A DNA stretch of 42,921 bases from Candidatus Omnitrophota bacterium (GTDB taxonomy: Bacteria > Omnitrophota > Gorgyraeia > Aquiviventales > Aquiviventaceae): positions 1-42,921 of the forward strand of contig JACPTX010000055.1 in assembly GCA_016192545.1 (NCBI GenBank). Reading direction: 5' to 3'. Numbering within the stretch: the first letter of the stretch is position 1; every line of letters starts with the position of its first letter. Positions 3,347 to 22,678 of this stretch are shown one piece after another. The notes under the pieces are model-generated. The model was given only the letters and a program-made list of their open reading frames with translations, did no database searches and was not told the origin of the DNA. Made by a program: the position numbers and the translations under genes.

Positions 3347-4408
3347 TCACGCAAGCGAGGTGGGGCGGGGCTCGTAGGCGCAGCAGGGCTCTTCGGCGAG
3401 ATAATCCCCTGTCGCGGCGTACGCGCGGGCGCGGCAGCCGCTGCAGATTTGCCGGAATTCGCAGACGCCGCACTTGCCTTTCAGAAAATCCGCATCCCGG
3501 AGCGTCGCCAGGATGAACGAGTGCTCCCAGATCTCCGGAAACGGCTGCTCCCGGACGCTCCCGCAGGCAACCGGCAGATAGCCGCACGGGAAGACCTCGC
3601 CCTGATGGGACACGAAACAGATGCCGGTGCCGGCGAGGCACCCCTTGGTCATCGCCGACAGATGCGAGGCCGAGCGGTACCGGCCCAAGAGGTGCTCCTG
3701 GGCCAGCACCCGGAAGTACTGCGGCGCGCAGGTGGCCCGGATGAACCGTTCCTGGGCCCGGGATTTGGCGGCGATCCACTCCAGCACCTGCTCATACTGC
3801 TCGGCGGCAAGCTGCTGCTCCTCCGGGATCTCCAGCCCGCAGCCCACCGGCACGAACATGAACAGGTGCCAGGCATCCGCCCCGATCACCTCCACCAGGT
3901 CATGCATCGCGTCCAGCTGACCCAGGTTATGCTGCGTCAGCGTCGTGTTGACCTGGAGGCTGACGTGGCGGGCGTGCAGCCGCTCAGACCCGTCGAGGGC
4001 CTTCTCAAACGCCCCCGCCTGGCCCCGAAACGCGTCATGCGTCGCCGCATCGGCGCCATCGAAGCTGATGGCCACCCGGTCGAAGCCCGCGTCTTCAATC
4101 GCATCCGCCATGGGCATGTCGATCAGCGTGCCGTTGGTCGCCAGCGCAATGGGCAGCTCCCGGGCTTTCGCATAGCGGGCCAGCTCGAACAGGTCCGGAC
4201 GCAAGAGCGGCTCTCCGCCGGAAAACACCAGCACCGGCCTCCCCACGCCGGCCAGCTCCTCGATCAATCGCCTGGCCTCACCGGTGGTCAGGTCGGCCTT
4301 CGAGAGCTCGCGGCTCACGTCCAGCCGCCGGCAGTGCCGGCAGGCGAGATTGCAGCCGGCGGTCGTTTCCCAGAACACCAGACGCAACTCAGGGAGTTGC
4401 GCGATCAT
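3347..4408 (-). CDS. Radical SAM/SPASM protein, AhbD-like (heme synthase family)
   Basis: TTAGCNLACRHCRR radical SAM motif; TKGCLAGTGICFVSHQGEVFPCGYLPV and CGVCEFRQICSGCRARAYAATGDYLAEEPCCAYEP SPASM pattern. Confidence 0.75.
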   Translation of the reverse strand: MIAQLPELRLVFWETTAGCNLACRHCRRLDVSRELSKADLTTGEARRLIEELAGVGRPVLVFSGGEPLLRPDLFELARYAKARELPIALATNGTLIDMPMADAIEDAGFDRVAISFDGADAATHDAFRGQAGAFEKALDGSERLHARHVSLQVNTTLTQHNLGQLDAMHDLVEVIGADAWHLFMFVPVGCGLEIPEEQQLAAEQYEQVLEWIAAKSRAQERFIRATCAPQYFRVLAQEHLLGRYRSASHLSAMTKGCLAGTGICFVSHQGEVFPCGYLPVACGSVREQPFPEIWEHSFILATLRDADFLKGKCGVCEFRQICSGCRARAYAATGDYLAEEPCCAYEPRPTSLA

Positions 4409-4631
4409 CACGGCTTCCCTCTTCCCGGTAGGACAGCCATGTGCTCTGGAACGGCCACTGCCCCCCATCCATCGTGAAGGCGCATCCTTGGTCGTAACAG
4501 GCGTGATCCTTATCCAGACAGTTGACGATCTGCCAGCTCCCGTCGGCTTGCTTCACCACGATCGCCCACACCTCCCGCTTCAGGAATGGGCACTGCTGGG
4601 GGAGATATTTCATATCCGCTCGTTCGCCCAT
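4389..4631 (-). CDS. Small Cys-containing conserved-looking protein of unknown function
   Basis: MGERADMKYLPQQCPFLKREVWAIVVKQADGSWQIVNCLDKDHACYDQGCAFTMDGGQWPF; overlaps the downstream AhbD-like start. Confidence 0.55.
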   Translation of the reverse strand: MGERADMKYLPQQCPFLKREVWAIVVKQADGSWQIVNCLDKDHACYDQGCAFTMDGGQWPFQSTWLSYREEGSRDDRATP

Positions 4632-4681: not shown

Positions 4682-6442
4682 TCAGGCCTCTTGCCCGCGT
4701 CCGGTCACCCATTTGATCGGCGCAGGAGGAAACGGCCAGTGCCGCCTGTGACGCGACATCGGCGCATTCGCCTCATAAAACGTCGGCGGCTCGTACGTCA
4801 CCCCGGCTTTCAGGCGCTGGGCCTCCTGCCGCAGTTTCGACCAGACGAGCCGCCCGCCGAGCGGCGCGACCAATCGCGCCCTGATGCCGACTTCCCGCTT
4901 AATTTCCTCCAAGAGCCCGGAGAGCTTTCGCACCAGCTCAGGGTTGCGCTCCTGGAACCATCGCCGCGCCGCCCAGAGCGCCGCGGGGAACGTGATCGTC
5001 AGATCCCTCGCCTCCCAGGCAAAGCGGCTCCGAATGCACGGATCGGCATGATGCTTATACCGCCGCCACCCCGACAGGACGGTCCGCGCGATGCGCAGGA
5101 CGCTCGGCCCGTTCACCTCGAAATCCCGCCGAAACGCCCTCAGGATGATCTCGGTCTCCTGTCCTCTCGGGATATGCGGATGGCGGTGCCTGAAGATGAA
5201 CTGCCCGTGGACATCCCCCTCCTGATAGTCGCCGGGATCGAGGAGCGTCCTGTTGGCCAGGTGCTCCGCATACAGCGGCGTGCCGGGAATGGGCGTGTAG
5301 AGCATGAACTGGTGAAAGTCGGTGCGATGGCTGACGGCGTACTCGATGACGTCGGTGATGTTGTCGGGGGTGTGCTCCTCGAGCCCGATGATGCTGGAGC
5401 CCAGGACCCGGATCCCGTGCGACTGGAGGGTGCGCACCAGCTCACGGGTGTCAATGCCCTGCAGCTTGGCGTACCGGCTGTCCTTGCCCTCCAGCCCCAT
5501 CCACACCCACGAAATGCCCAGACGCACCAGTTGTTCGATGGGGTAGGAGCGCACCACGTGCGCCGAGCTGAAGACGTACAACGACCACGACTTGCCGTGC
5601 TCCTCCATCAGCTCCAGGAGCCGCAGGGCGCGCTTTTTGTGCAGCAGGAAGTTCTCATCCATGACAAAGAACGACCGGACCCCCATGCCCTGCTCGATGC
5701 CGCACATGACGCGGAACAGCTCATCGCCGGTCTCATAAAAATTGATGAACTTGCCCTTCCCCCCGAACATCGCGGACGTCGCGCAGAAGTTGCAGCCCAT
5801 GGGGCAGCCGACGGAGGGGAGCAGAGCGGCGGCCACGTTCCGCCCGCTGTTCGGCGCCTGGAACCCCATCACCCGCGTGCCGACGGCGGAGGAGATCAGC
5901 GGATGCCGGATCGGCTGCGTCGCGTCCTCGCCCAGGAACCGGCGGAACCACCGCACGCCCTCTCCCGGCACAACGTAGTCCGCGTCAATGTACCGGGCGA
6001 GCCCCGGCCGGTTGGCGATATGGCCCCCCACGACAATCGTGGCGTGCGGCAGATGCTCCCGCACCAGGCGGCACATCGTTTTGACCTTCTCGATATTCGG
6101 CAGGATCGAGCTGATCCCGACGACGTCATAGGGGAAACTCTGCAGCTCGCTGACGAAGCGCTCCAGCGTCGGGAAATCCAGCAGCGTGCAGGGCGCCGCG
6201 ATGTTGGCCTGGATCAGCATGATGCCCCACGAGCGGTGGAACATGCGCAGGGAAAACGGCCCCTCCGCGCGCGTGACCTGGTTCTGGTACAGCTCCATCG
6301 GATTGATCGCCCGGCTGCCGTACTCATCATCCCGGGCATACGGGCCGAACACGCTGGTCAGCAGGATGGTGGCGCGCGAGCCAAGCGGATGGACCGCCCC
6401 GGCCCGGCTGTCCGCGCGGAGCGTGTCAGTCTCAAGACTCAT
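4682..6442 (-). CDS. B12-binding-domain radical SAM protein
   Basis: N-terminal B12-binding-like region (YDVVGISSILPNIEKV, IVVGGHIANRPG) and CPMGCNFCATS radical SAM motif. Confidence 0.85.
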   Translation of the reverse strand: MSLETDTLRADSRAGAVHPLGSRATILLTSVFGPYARDDEYGSRAINPMELYQNQVTRAEGPFSLRMFHRSWGIMLIQANIAAPCTLLDFPTLERFVSELQSFPYDVVGISSILPNIEKVKTMCRLVREHLPHATIVVGGHIANRPGLARYIDADYVVPGEGVRWFRRFLGEDATQPIRHPLISSAVGTRVMGFQAPNSGRNVAAALLPSVGCPMGCNFCATSAMFGGKGKFINFYETGDELFRVMCGIEQGMGVRSFFVMDENFLLHKKRALRLLELMEEHGKSWSLYVFSSAHVVRSYPIEQLVRLGISWVWMGLEGKDSRYAKLQGIDTRELVRTLQSHGIRVLGSSIIGLEEHTPDNITDVIEYAVSHRTDFHQFMLYTPIPGTPLYAEHLANRTLLDPGDYQEGDVHGQFIFRHRHPHIPRGQETEIILRAFRRDFEVNGPSVLRIARTVLSGWRRYKHHADPCIRSRFAWEARDLTITFPAALWAARRWFQERNPELVRKLSGLLEEIKREVGIRARLVAPLGGRLVWSKLRQEAQRLKAGVTYEPPTFYEANAPMSRHRRHWPFPPAPIKWVTGRGQEA

Positions 6443-7710
6443 GCGATTTCCCCCTCCGTTAAGTAGCACGCCGGATCCGGCGCCCATGGATCCCCATGAG
6501 CCTGGAGCGCCCGGACACGAAACGACCCTCCGCACAGCGGTTTCCACCGGCAGGAGCCGCACCGGCCGGTCAACCGCGGCAGCCGGTCGCGCAGGCCCGC
6601 GAGAATCGGGTCATCGTTGTCCGTCCAGATCTCGCTGAACGGGCGCTCCCGGACGTTGCCCAGCGTATGCGTCTGCCAGAACTGGTCCGGATGGACGCCG
6701 CCGGCCGCATCAATGTTGGCGATCCCGATGCCGGAGGAATTCGCCCCGCCTCCGTTCCACTCGAGCGCCCGCAGGGTCTCCAGCGCCCGCCGGGGATCCT
6801 CCTGCTTCAATTTGAGATAGACATACACGCCGTCGACGTGGTTATCCACGGTGAGCACCTCCACGGGCAGCGACCGGTCCGCCAATGCACGGGTCCAGGC
6901 GCAAATCCGGTCAAGCGCCTCGCGCGTTTCCTGGCGGCTGAGATCATCCTCCGCCAGGCGGCTGCCCCGGCCGGAATAGACCAAGTGATAGAAACAGACC
7001 CGGTTGATGCCTTCCTGTTCGACCAGCGCGAAGATGTCCTCCAGCGCCTCGAAGTTGCGGCGGGTCAGCGTGAAGCGCAGGCCCACTTTTTGCCCCACCG
7101 CCTTCAGGTGGCGCACGCCGGCCAGGGCCGCCTCAAACGCGCCGGACCGGCCCCGGAACCGGTCGTTGATCTTCCCGAGCCCATCGAAGGAGATGCCGAC
7201 ATAACTGAAGCCGGTCCGTGCGATGCGCTCAGCCGCCGGGCGGTCAATCAGCGTGCCGTTGGTGGAGATGGTCAACCGCAGGCCGAGCCCTCTGGCATAG
7301 CCGGCCAGCTCGAAAAAGCGCGGGTGGAGCAGCGGCTCTCCGCCGGAGAGCAGGAGCGCGGGAATCTGAAACTGCGCCACGTCCTCCAGCATCCGCCGGG
7401 CTTCGTCCACGGTCAGCTCGCCGGGATACTCGCGGTTGTCGGAGTCGGAGTAGCAATGCACGCAGTGCAAGTTGCAGCGCCGGCTCATCGTCCAGACCAC
7501 GATGGGCTTGCGCGCCCGGGCAGACGCAGGCGCCTGAGGGCCGGCACCGCCGTTGCGGCGGCCCTGAGAAATCGCGCGAACGCGATTTCCAGAACTCAGT
7601 CCCGGACCCCCCTTCTTGCTTTCGCAAGAAAGCAGGGGGGTCACGGGGCCATAGCGGAGCGCGTCGCTGCCGCCGGCGAGGCCGCAGTACAGCGTCGTGA
7701 CGTCAATCAT
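6439..7710 (-). CDS. Radical SAM/SPASM protein, NirJ/AhbC family
   Basis: N-term MIDVTTLYCG..SDALRYG; KPIVVWTMSRRCNLHCVHCYSDSDNREYPGEL; GGVHPDQFWQTHTLGNVRERPFSEIW; CGSCRWKPLCGGSFRVRA. Confidence 0.82.
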   Translation of the reverse strand: MIDVTTLYCGLAGGSDALRYGPVTPLLSCESKKGGPGLSSGNRVRAISQGRRNGGAGPQAPASARARKPIVVWTMSRRCNLHCVHCYSDSDNREYPGELTVDEARRMLEDVAQFQIPALLLSGGEPLLHPRFFELAGYARGLGLRLTISTNGTLIDRPAAERIARTGFSYVGISFDGLGKINDRFRGRSGAFEAALAGVRHLKAVGQKVGLRFTLTRRNFEALEDIFALVEQEGINRVCFYHLVYSGRGSRLAEDDLSRQETREALDRICAWTRALADRSLPVEVLTVDNHVDGVYVYLKLKQEDPRRALETLRALEWNGGGANSSGIGIANIDAAGGVHPDQFWQTHTLGNVRERPFSEIWTDNDDPILAGLRDRLPRLTGRCGSCRWKPLCGGSFRVRALQAHGDPWAPDPACYLTEGEIA

Positions 7711-8974: not shown

Positions 8975-10765
8975 TTACGCGGCGCACTCGCCGGGACCCA
9001 TGCCGCCCAGCGAGAAATCAGTCTCCGCGCCCCAGTCGCGGTAGGCCTCGGGCGAGGCCTCATAGGGCGGGAGACCGGTGAAGGCCTCGAACGCCTGTTT
9101 CCAATAGCCGGTTCCGACGCGCAGGGCGAAGGCCCGGAACGCTTCTTGCGGGGACTGGCGGTCTTGGCGGTAGAGCTCGAGCATCCGCACGACCGCCTCG
9201 GGGATGCGGCGCGCCGGCAGCTTGAGGATCGGCTTGCCGAATTCGGCTGTGCCCTCGTCGGTGAATCCCCCGAGCAGCAGCTGGAAATGGGGGACCAGGC
9301 GCTCGTGGATCTTCCGCGCGCCGCCGAAGAAGCCGATGTCCGCGAGATGATGCTGGCCGCAGGAATTGGGGCAGCCGCTCACCTTGATGCGGATGCGCTC
9401 AAGATCCTCGCCGGACAGGCCGGCTTCTTTCAACTTCGCTTCCAGCGCCCGTGTCAGCCCGCGCGAGGCCGAGATCCCTAACTGGCAGGTCTCCGCACCG
9501 GGACAGGAGGTCACGTCGTAGATGGTCCCGGCTTCAGGCTCGGCCAGGCCGAGAGGCTTGAGTTCGCTGTAGAGCGAGGCGAGCTGGTTGTCGCGGATCC
9601 ACGCCAGCGCGAGATTCTGTTCGATCGTGACGCGCAGCCGCCCCCCGCAGTACCGCCGGACAATCCGGGCCAGGGCCCGCATCTGCGCGGCCGTGATGTC
9701 GCCCAGCCGCAGCTTGATCGTCACGACGGAATAGCCGGCCTGCTTCTGCCCCATGACGTTGGTGAGCATCCAGCGGCTGAACAGCCCGTTCACGGAGCCG
9801 GACATCCCTCGTTCCTCGGGACTCCCTCGCTGGCGCTCGGTCGCGGGCGGTTGCTCATCCGTGTCCGTCACCTGCATGTCCGGATAGCTGTACGGCGGCA
9901 GCTGCTTGCGCTCGGCGAACACCTCCTGGCGGAACGCGTCAGGCCCCAGCCGCTTGACGACGAATTTGATCCTGGCTGTGGCCTTGTTCTTGCGGTCGCC
10001 CAGGCGGTCATGGACGCGCACGACCGCTTCGCAGGTCCGCAGGAGGTCCGTCGTCGGCGTGAACGGCTCCAGGAGGATCGCCTGCATCGGCGCGGCTCCC
10101 AACCCGCCGCCGACGTAGATCCGGAAACCCAGCGTCCGCCTGCCGCCCTCCTCGCGGATGGCCGCGACCGCGCCGATGTCGTGGATCGCGGTCCTGGCAT
10201 GATCCACCGGGCAGCCCTCAAACGCGATCTTGAATTTCCTGGGCAGCTTCTGGCTGACCGGGTTGCGCAGGAAATGGCGCGTGACGGCGGAGGCGTGCTG
10301 GGTCACGTCGAACAGCTCGGTGGGGCTGACCCCCGCGAAGTGGCACGCGGTGACGTTGCGCACGCTGTTGCCGCAGGCCTCCCGCGTGGTCAATCCGACC
10401 CGCGCGAGCGCCGCCATCGCCACGGGCGCTTCCCTCGTCGGGATCCAGTACAGCTGCATGTCCTGGCGCGTAGTGAGGTGGCCGATGCCCTTGGAATAGG
10501 TTTCCGCCAAGTCCGCGAAGCACTCGAGCTGCTCCGCGTTGAGCCGGCCCTGCGGGATTTTGATCCGCATCATGTGGATGTCCTTCACCCCGCGGATCCC
10601 GTAGGTGCCGAGCTGCAGGCGGCAGGCCTTGAACTCATCCGGGGCCATCTGCCCGAGGAAGTACCGCTCCACGGCCTGTTGGAACTGGGCGATTTCCTCC
10701 CGGCTGGCCTGCGGCACTTCCTTCAGGAACTCTTCAAGGCGCTTTTGAGCGAGCGTCTCAGTCAT
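8975..10765 (-). CDS. nirA: Siroheme nitrite/sulfite reductase (ferredoxin-type)
   Basis: LTTRQDMQLYWI, ACGNSVRNVTACHFAG, CPGAETCQLGISASRGL and KVSGCPNSCGQHHLADIGFFG siroheme/4Fe-4S ligands. Confidence 0.88.
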   Translation of the reverse strand: MTETLAQKRLEEFLKEVPQASREEIAQFQQAVERYFLGQMAPDEFKACRLQLGTYGIRGVKDIHMMRIKIPQGRLNAEQLECFADLAETYSKGIGHLTTRQDMQLYWIPTREAPVAMAALARVGLTTREACGNSVRNVTACHFAGVSPTELFDVTQHASAVTRHFLRNPVSQKLPRKFKIAFEGCPVDHARTAIHDIGAVAAIREEGGRRTLGFRIYVGGGLGAAPMQAILLEPFTPTTDLLRTCEAVVRVHDRLGDRKNKATARIKFVVKRLGPDAFRQEVFAERKQLPPYSYPDMQVTDTDEQPPATERQRGSPEERGMSGSVNGLFSRWMLTNVMGQKQAGYSVVTIKLRLGDITAAQMRALARIVRRYCGGRLRVTIEQNLALAWIRDNQLASLYSELKPLGLAEPEAGTIYDVTSCPGAETCQLGISASRGLTRALEAKLKEAGLSGEDLERIRIKVSGCPNSCGQHHLADIGFFGGARKIHERLVPHFQLLLGGFTDEGTAEFGKPILKLPARRIPEAVVRMLELYRQDRQSPQEAFRAFALRVGTGYWKQAFEAFTGLPPYEASPEAYRDWGAETDFSLGGMGPGECAA

Positions 10766-20424: not shown

Positions 20425-20530
20425 AACAGGCCAGCTCCTCGCAGAAAAGGAGAAGCTGGCCCGCTCACGGAAACCGCCCATCTCCTTTCCAAACACGAGG
20501 AGGCGAGGTCGTTTCCTTCCTCGCCCGGTC
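20425..20530 (-). ncRNA. Candidate Moco (molybdenum cofactor) riboswitch upstream of moaA
   Basis: Minus strand GGCGAGGAAGGAAACGACCTCGCCTCCTCGTGTTTGGAAAGGAGATGGGCGGTTTCCGTGAGCGGGCC: nested GGAAAC/GTTTCC pairing and GCCTCC...GGAAAGGAGATGGG as remembered for the Moco motif; followed by hairpin GGCCAGCT...AGCTGGCC (20429-20461) just before the moaA SD. Confidence 0.75.
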
Positions 20531-20531
20531 C

Positions 20532-20556
20532 CTTTGCTTCGCTTTGCGAAGCAAAG
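20532..20556. repeat. Perfect hairpin CTTTGCTTCGC-TTT-GCGAAGCAAAG
   Basis: 11-bp inverted repeat with 3-nt loop, read directly. Confidence 0.9.
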
Positions 20557-20591
20557 CGTTGGGACAGGGGCCCAGGCGCCATGTCTGTCTT

Positions 20592-20622
20592 GGGGTCAGA
20601 CCCCTCGCTGGGGTCAGACCCC
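20592..20622. repeat. Two tandem copies of palindrome GGGGTCAGACCCC
   Basis: 20592-20604 and 20610-20622; abuts the stop codon of the ferredoxin CDS. Confidence 0.9.
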
Positions 20623-20623
20623 G

Positions 20624-21034
20624 CTAGAGGTAGGCGCCGGGGCTCGGAGTGTGATTCAGATTGTCATCCAGCGCAAGTCGAATCGCCCCAACGTCGTTGA
20701 CGGTGCGGCACGCCTCGACGCACACGCCGCATCCATTACAGGCCGAGGCCATCACCAGCGGCCTGCCATCATCCAACATAATCGCCTCATCGCGAAGCGG
20801 ACAGCGCAGGTAACACGCTTGACAGGGGCTCGCACCCCAAGCCAAGCATCGCGTGACATCAATGACCGCAAGCCGTCGTCCGCCTACAGACGCTGTGGTC
20901 TGTGCTCCCGCGACGCCGCTCGGGGACCCCTCGGCGATGAGCTCCCTCACGCCAGCAACCATCTGACGCGGCAGCCATCTGAGGAAGGTCCGCCGGCTCA
21001 CCGCCGCGTGCTGCGTCTCGTCGAGGAGGGTCAT
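20624..21034 (-). CDS. 4Fe-4S ferredoxin-type protein with Tat-like N-terminus (NapF/NapG-like)
   Basis: SRRTFLRW; CLAWGASPCQACYLRCP and CNGCGVCVEACRTVND. Confidence 0.75.
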   Translation of the reverse strand: MTLLDETQHAAVSRRTFLRWLPRQMVAGVRELIAEGSPSGVAGAQTTASVGGRRLAVIDVTRCLAWGASPCQACYLRCPLRDEAIMLDDGRPLVMASACNGCGVCVEACRTVNDVGAIRLALDDNLNHTPSPGAYL

Positions 21035-21870: not shown

Positions 21871-22639
21871 CACCCGGTTTCCCCCGCTGGAGGGCGCACG
21901 CGGCGCATCCCACCGCCTCCTGCTCCTTTGGAGAGCGCAACGGCAAGTCGCAGGAGCCCAACGGAACGCCCATCCGCGCGCACTCCTGCGAAAGCCACTC
22001 CAGCAAGAATGCTCCAACGGCGGCCAGCCCCTCCCCCTCGGCTGAGCGTGTGAGCCGAAGGGCAAACGCCGGTCCCCACCGCCCGAGATGGTCGGCCAGG
22101 AAGCGCCGGCCGGCTTCCTCGCATACCTGCGCCTGTTCAGCAGCCTCCTCATCAGCTGCGCAGGCCTGCTTGTACAGGAGGTAGTGCAAAAATTCACACT
22201 CTGTGCCAATGTGATCCACCCGCTCATGCGCCCTTGCGGCTACCTGAAGCCCGAAGGCGGTATAGAAGGCGGCGATATCACTCAATTCTTGCGGCTGCCG
22301 ATGGCTGTGCTCTTCGCCGTATTCGAGCTCATAGGGTGGTGCGGTACCCTGTACCGTGTGGCCAAATATCCGCTCGTGCTGGCGTGTCAGGTCGGGAAGT
22401 GTCGTCGTGTCCAGCATCTTCATCAGGCGACCAGCCAACTCCAACAGGCGGCCATCGTCTCCGAGTCGCCCAAGCACTTCGGGCAGCCGATGGTGTTCGC
22501 GTGCCACCAACCACTTCACCGTCTCCGCGCCTGGATGGCGCAGCAGCACCGAGAGCGCGTGATACACGGCGCTCCGAGCCAGCAGCTCCTCGACTGTTCG
22601 GGCCGCCTGGGAAAATGGGGACGTTTCTATTTTTCCCAT
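21860..22639 (-). CDS. TorD/NarJ-family molybdoenzyme chaperone
   Basis: RHERIFGHTVQGTAPPYELEYGEEHSHRQPQELSDIAAFYTAFGLQVA...RVDHIGTECEFLHYLLYKQACA. Confidence 0.8.
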   Translation of the reverse strand: MGKIETSPFSQAARTVEELLARSAVYHALSVLLRHPGAETVKWLVAREHHRLPEVLGRLGDDGRLLELAGRLMKMLDTTTLPDLTRQHERIFGHTVQGTAPPYELEYGEEHSHRQPQELSDIAAFYTAFGLQVAARAHERVDHIGTECEFLHYLLYKQACAADEEAAEQAQVCEEAGRRFLADHLGRWGPAFALRLTRSAEGEGLAAVGAFLLEWLSQECARMGVPLGSCDLPLRSPKEQEAVGCAACALQRGKPGDGC

Positions 22640-22678
22640 CTTCTTCCTCTCCGGAAAAATAGAAACGTCCCCATTTTC
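22611..22678. repeat. 26-bp perfect inverted repeat with 16-nt loop (GAAAATGGGGACGTTTCTATTTTTCC)
   Basis: Left arm 22611-22636, right arm 22653-22678. Confidence 0.95.

Follow-up and report, generated by a model that had tools for sequence, protein, structure and literature searches.

The window examined here, a stretch of 42,921 nucleotides from an Omnitrophota genome (G000), carries at 6439–7710 (−) a gene for a radical SAM/SPASM protein that was assigned from its NirJ1/AhbC profile scores and an alignment with 11 homologues. The product scored 502 bits against NirJ1 and 483 bits against AhbC (NCBIfam); since both values fall below the curated cut-off of 650, the gene is called NirJ/AhbC-like. 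All conserved residues, e.g., CNLHCVHC, were present in the alignment. This gene and a cysteine desulfurase gene are flanked by genes for a B12-binding-type radical SAM protein (4682–6562, −) and a NirA-like nitrite/sulfite reductase (8975–10765, −), and a second NirJ-like radical SAM gene with 37% identity to the first is located nearby (3377–4507, −).

The NirJ/AhbC-like protein contains an extra segment between its conserved N-terminus MIDVTTLYCGLAGGSDALRYG and the radical SAM core RKPIVVWTMSRRCNLHC, and the frame of 6439–7710 (−) stays open throughout despite the insert, as the initial annotation had stated. The extra stretch recognized in that annotation is real, but the inserted part is confined to 87 nt or 29 codons (7562–7648, −), and the RRNGGAGPQAPASARAR that follows it (7511–7561, −) lies outside the insert and is a native linker, the length of which differs among relatives. 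In agreement with an insertion, ten relatives (65–77% identical) lacked the segment and had only a variable-length linker between RYG and the core, while the remainder aligned end to end. Excision of the 87 nt generates the junction LRYG-RRNGG, as in these empty homologues, and the element itself scored 66.9 bits against the covariance model R1 described below. The AlphaFold model of the protein was poor overall (mean pLDDT 56.8), with no confident structure for residues 1–69 and the first barrel strand at residue 70. This placement agrees with a linker insert that does no harm, and the enzyme is probably still produced and active, its disordered linker ahead of the radical SAM barrel being longer; we infer that the insert is translated and neutral. 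The kept frame and the otherwise intact gene would also suit an adaptive addition of 29 residues to the enzyme in place of tolerated selfish DNA. That reading is nevertheless very improbable, for the insert occupies a linker whose length is free to vary between relatives, its region is predicted to be disordered, and two other proteins, an M20 peptidase and NuoC, obtain unrelated peptides from the same element.

Structure of the Inserted Element

The minus-strand DNA of the 87-nt element is CCCCGTGACCCCCCTGCTTTCTTGCGAAAGCAAGAAGGGGGGTCCGGGACTGAGTTCTGGAAATCGCGTTCGCGCGATTTCTCAGGG, which is read in the NirJ/AhbC-like gene as PVTPLLSCESKKGGPGLSSGNRVRAISQG with the flanking bases included. Folding and covariation divided it into two hairpin units. 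Unit 1 (CCCCGTGA...TCCGGG) spans 7601–7648 (−) and holds a further hairpin within its tip, while unit 2 (TCTGGAAATCGCG-TTCG-CGCGATTTCTCAGGG) spans 7562–7593 (−) and repeats the plan of unit 1 in inverted form. Between the two inverted units stands the conserved centre ACT-G-AGT (7594–7600, −), which is near GGRAYTNARTCC in most of the 135 copies. The nested hairpin CCCCCCTGCTTTCTTGC-GAAAGCAAGAAGGGGGG (CCCCCC...GGGGGG) at 7607–7640 (−) is of a solo type and scored 61.6 bits against a second model, R2; solo copies of it were found in G000 (contig C7) and in the genomes G017, G020, and G021. Both hairpins that the initial annotation had placed here are present, and the 101-nt region folded with −59.5 kcal/mol versus −37.1 ± 4.0 kcal/mol for shuffled sequences (z = −5.6), a value reached by 0 of 200 shuffles. 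They are not arranged back to back, however, as the 38-nt hairpin (7605–7642) is nested in the tip of unit 1, also occurs on its own, and is not a neighbour of equal rank. Four of the six frames of the 87-nt element are free of stop codons versus 2.4–2.5 in shuffles (P about 0.16–0.19), which is not notable, and the idea that the element is unusually stop-free was rejected.

A hairpin nested in unit 1 was also observed at a locus of G021 (L011, contig C125), where it is the exact reverse complement of window 7607–7640 of G000, the two genomes representing two genera. It looks as if the nested hairpin had been flipped, or inserted in either orientation, between G000 and G021. Elsewhere in the window stand a perfect 26-bp inverted repeat GAAAATGGGGACGTTTCTATTTTTCC with a 16-nt spacer (22611–22678), which is a palindrome of a different type from the element, and a Moco (molybdenum/tungsten cofactor) riboswitch (Rfam RF01055, 60.2 bits; 20468–20661, −).

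Copies in the Host Genome

The G000 genome is a metagenome-type assembly of 1.35 Mb in 67 contigs with 86% completeness. A genome-wide search, which the initial annotation had put forward as a check, located the element elsewhere in G000 as well, so that it occupies four core sites, with one solo hairpin in addition. With the segment also lacking from homologues, neither of the two refuting conditions named in that annotation held. Three of the core sites are full copies that are 96–100% identical and lie at unrelated loci, all touching genes, namely the NirJ-like gene, an M20 peptidase gene (contig C8), and an M16 peptidase gene (contig C5). Excising exactly 87 bp yielded the expected junction at all three gene sites. 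For the M20 gene the junction reads RWQ-QDPFGGEIV (RWQ-QDPFGGEIVDDAIWGRGALD), and for the M16 gene a C-terminus VVVAP-ANGR* is obtained, where relatives end in forms like VVISPNGH (VVISPNGHTTAN*). The M16 copy is located at the 3′ end of the gene, where the element provides a TGA stop and the last few residues are replaced. The M20 copy is in frame, and the NirJ-like and M20 genes use different forward frames of the element. The fourth core copy (L098, contig C3 near 44393) is a 65-nt form located within an outer hairpin, and this outer hairpin itself stands between copies of another repeat, GGAAAACAGGTACCGGTTCTGGTTTTTCC.

The M20 gene with its insertion corresponds to 485–2053 (−) of the locus L003 on contig C8. 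No homologue of it was detected at E ≤ 1e−40 in 40 relatives or at E ≤ 1e−50 in 285 Omnitrophota genomes. Since no close M20 relative was found, its empty site was judged against solved M20 structures; at the cut-offs used, the gene may be a recent acquisition.

An assembly or binning artefact would be imaginable for a metagenome-type assembly of 67 contigs, in which mis-joins are possible at repeats. It is, however, highly improbable, because the same gene stands on both sides of the element in all three cases, excision restores the frame, and the same family is present in other genomes. The insertion in the NirJ-like gene is real.

Distribution in the Phylum Omnitrophota

The covariance model R1 of the element core was constructed from six rows, one of which (“x”) is chimeric, having been trimmed by hand from the nirJ copy and the locus L010. 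It matched the genomes G017, G020, G021, and G028, the last of which belongs to the same class and another family, and at E ≤ 1e−6 it matched 20 of the 285 Omnitrophota genomes of a phylum sample. The exact core was found by a scan of genome contigs only in two named Omnitrophota genomes of the same family as the host. Across 150 aligned matches, some of them copies counted on both strands, 97.1% of cells were paired and two-sided changes occurred in 23 of 25 pairs, in an alignment that was fitted to the structure and thereby favours pairing. Two-sided cells numbered 556 versus 157 in shuffles, and slid controls collapsed. The variants listed for the host family are 63, 66, 84, or 87 nt long. 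Lengths in the phylum as a whole span all three classes, by which selection for a length divisible by three was rejected as a general rule.

Copies outside G000 are mostly located outside coding genes, and some stand directly upstream of genes (cold-shock, LuxC, and outer membrane efflux). Genic copies were screened by collecting ORFs that run through the element, followed by Pfam assignment of the candidates, a rough procedure that misses broken genes and 3′-end cases like M16. Outside G000 it detected one further clear in-frame case in the nuoC gene of G021, in which the core is nested in an outer hairpin and approximately 36 residues are added between TAVDYP and RIEVVYH, where relatives have none. 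The NuoC frame uses the element strand opposite to that read in NirJ and M20. In G178 (L265, contig C10), a pseudopilin-like gene gains a C-terminal extension from a core copy located at its 3′ end. The genic proportion was 3 of 4 copies in G000 versus 2 of 131 elsewhere (Fisher P about 1e−4), a comparison biased by the broken and 3′-end genes that the screen misses.

The strong covariation, together with the mostly extragenic placement and the copies directly upstream of genes, could be expected for a conserved structured RNA such as a terminator, mRNA stabilizer, or regulator, the genic location of which would be incidental. We consider this unlikely, since palindromic DNA covaries in the same way even where it plays no part as RNA, and the element is near-symmetric on both strands, is inserted precisely, and stands in coding sequence in either orientation. 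A common neighbour gene of the copies was not seen. A known structured RNA was rejected as a candidate: no Rfam family reached the gathering level at the element, and elsewhere in the loci only sub-threshold matches to microRNA models appeared.

Comparison with Known Palindromic Elements

In-frame palindromic insertions were once deemed unique to Rickettsia and were later recognized in a small number of bacteria rich in REPs. That clean cases accompanied by empty sites occur in a distant, uncultured phylum suggests that in-frame palindromic insertion is general. The initial annotation had recognized here the arrangement of Rickettsia palindromic elements (RPEs), which enter unrelated protein genes in frame and leave them unbroken (PMC10969869, PMC3767692), and which are reported to be 100–150 bp long. 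The likeness holds for the arrangement itself, as RPE-1 to RPE-10 and the Wolbachia palindromic elements are also dispersed palindromes located in frame in unrelated genes (here NirJ and M20 in G000, and NuoC in G021) that stay readable. It does not show the element to be an RPE. Unlike these, the present element forms a phylum-wide family of its own in Omnitrophota instead of Rickettsiales (Rickettsia/Wolbachia), is shorter (63–87 nt), and is built as a double-hairpin unit around a centre of its own. It also encodes no conserved peptide, given the two forward frames used in NirJ and M20 and the other strand in NuoC, and most of its copies, those outside G000 in particular, are extragenic.

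Work on GTAG- and CGTC-tagged REPs (Di Nocera 2013, PMC3733652) offers a closer precedent than RPEs; in that study, REP dimers inside genes add 20–30 residues, REP ends provide stop codons, dimers occur within larger palindromes, and RPE-4 and RPE-6 are equated with CGTC REPs. The Omnitrophota element shares with such dimers the pairing of inverted hairpin units, here facing inward and about 1 nt apart, and the occasional location in a larger palindrome, in a gene, or at a position giving a stop codon. It differs by having ACT-N-AGT at the centre instead of the tag, by bulged stems of 11–12 bp versus 8–9 bp for CGTC, and by its Omnitrophota hosts. Mitochondrial double-hairpin or repetitive hairpin-forming elements also place hairpins in genes at non-critical sites (PMC2800124); being mitochondrial and unrelated, they resemble the present element in plan only. 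The element hence works like an RPE or an intragenic REP dimer and is a member of neither as defined. No published family of palindromic repeats was apparent for Omnitrophota in a literature search on this phylum and palindromic repeats. Since in-frame and palindrome-nested REP dimers have already been described (Di Nocera 2013), the kind of element is known, and the Omnitrophota repeat is best described as an undescribed family with unusually clean in-frame insertions.

Insertion Sites and Proposed Movement

Nearly every host-family copy is preceded by G and followed by C, and in many cases the copy occupies a G^C step next to a larger hairpin's loop, e.g., TTTTGCTTCG^CAAAA and TTCTTG^CGAAAGCAAGAA. 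At L011 the nesting is three levels deep. No clear target-site duplication was detected, a possible repeat of 3–5 nt being present only at the M20 copy; the insertion boundary is ambiguous by 1–2 nt, and the data fit equally well with no duplication or with a 2-nt GC.

The copies are precisely inserted and dispersed, have empty sites, and make up a structured family. The insert in NirJ is very likely a single copy of a small palindromic repeat, non-autonomous and composed of two inverted REP-like units around ACT-N-AGT, which was inserted precisely into a tolerant linker and has spread in Omnitrophota by transposition-like copying. It is a short and probably mobile stretch of palindromic DNA. 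Its movement would have been recent and performed in trans by an enzyme with a preference for the G^C step, which in many cases would adjoin the loop of a hairpin already present. Because its length of 87 nt is divisible by three and four of its six frames are stop-free, an element copied in this manner into a tolerant linker or loop would lengthen the protein by 29 residues and leave it unbroken. Genic copies that survive would be those in linkers, loops, or ends, where 21–29 extra residues are harmless. The NirJ, M20, M16, and NuoC insertions make a set for testing what it costs an enzyme to gain about 20–30 residues.

The enzyme could be sought among the RAYT (TnpA-REP) HUH proteins if the element belonged to the REP/REPIN class, and the host's RAYT would then have been lost or would lie in the missing part of the assembly. 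REPINs with RAYT transposases (PMC3116915) are likewise short, symmetric, and non-autonomous with many copies per genome; they differ from the Omnitrophota case in that G000 and G017 have no RAYT and copies are located inside genes. The pairing of inverted hairpin units that carry a bulged base, the mostly extragenic placement, and the several to tens of copies all agree with this class, for which palindrome-nested and intragenic dimers encoding 20–30 residues are described (PMC3733652), and Y1 enzymes were found in 30 of 40 related genomes. The feet of the hairpins do not as a rule carry a GTAG or CGTC tag, however, neither word occurring anywhere in 115 of the 135 copies. Further, the Y1/RAYT domain PF01797 was detected neither in G000 nor in G017 (93% complete), both of which bear the element, nor on any of the listed element-bearing contigs of G020, G021, and G028. 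The PF01797 search thus gave no support to RAYT as the mover, although with G000 only 86% complete, absences of genes from it are weak evidence, and membership in the REP/REPIN class is a possibility to which we give rather less than even weight. No recurrent transposase cluster was present among 430 ORFs beside the copies.

Returning to a non-autonomous repeat moved in trans, we tentatively extend it to an old, phylum-wide double-hairpin family of Omnitrophota and perhaps their phages. A non-RAYT activity would insert it at G^C with preference for the tips of existing hairpins, so building nested palindromes, and genic hits would add ready-made in-frame peptides of 21–29 residues. Nested copies record the order of insertion and could reveal both the target rule and the enzyme behind the movement. 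Collections of plasmid and phage records gave no match to the element. Elements were found on three virus-labelled IMG/VR contigs (L275, L276, and L277) with 1–4 copies, which suggests as a lead that phages may carry the element between hosts. These contigs carry genes for a phage-type integrase, ParB, a methyltransferase, and DUF5131, and a DUF5131-like ORF with one copy reading through it lies at the margin of the fetched L277 locus.
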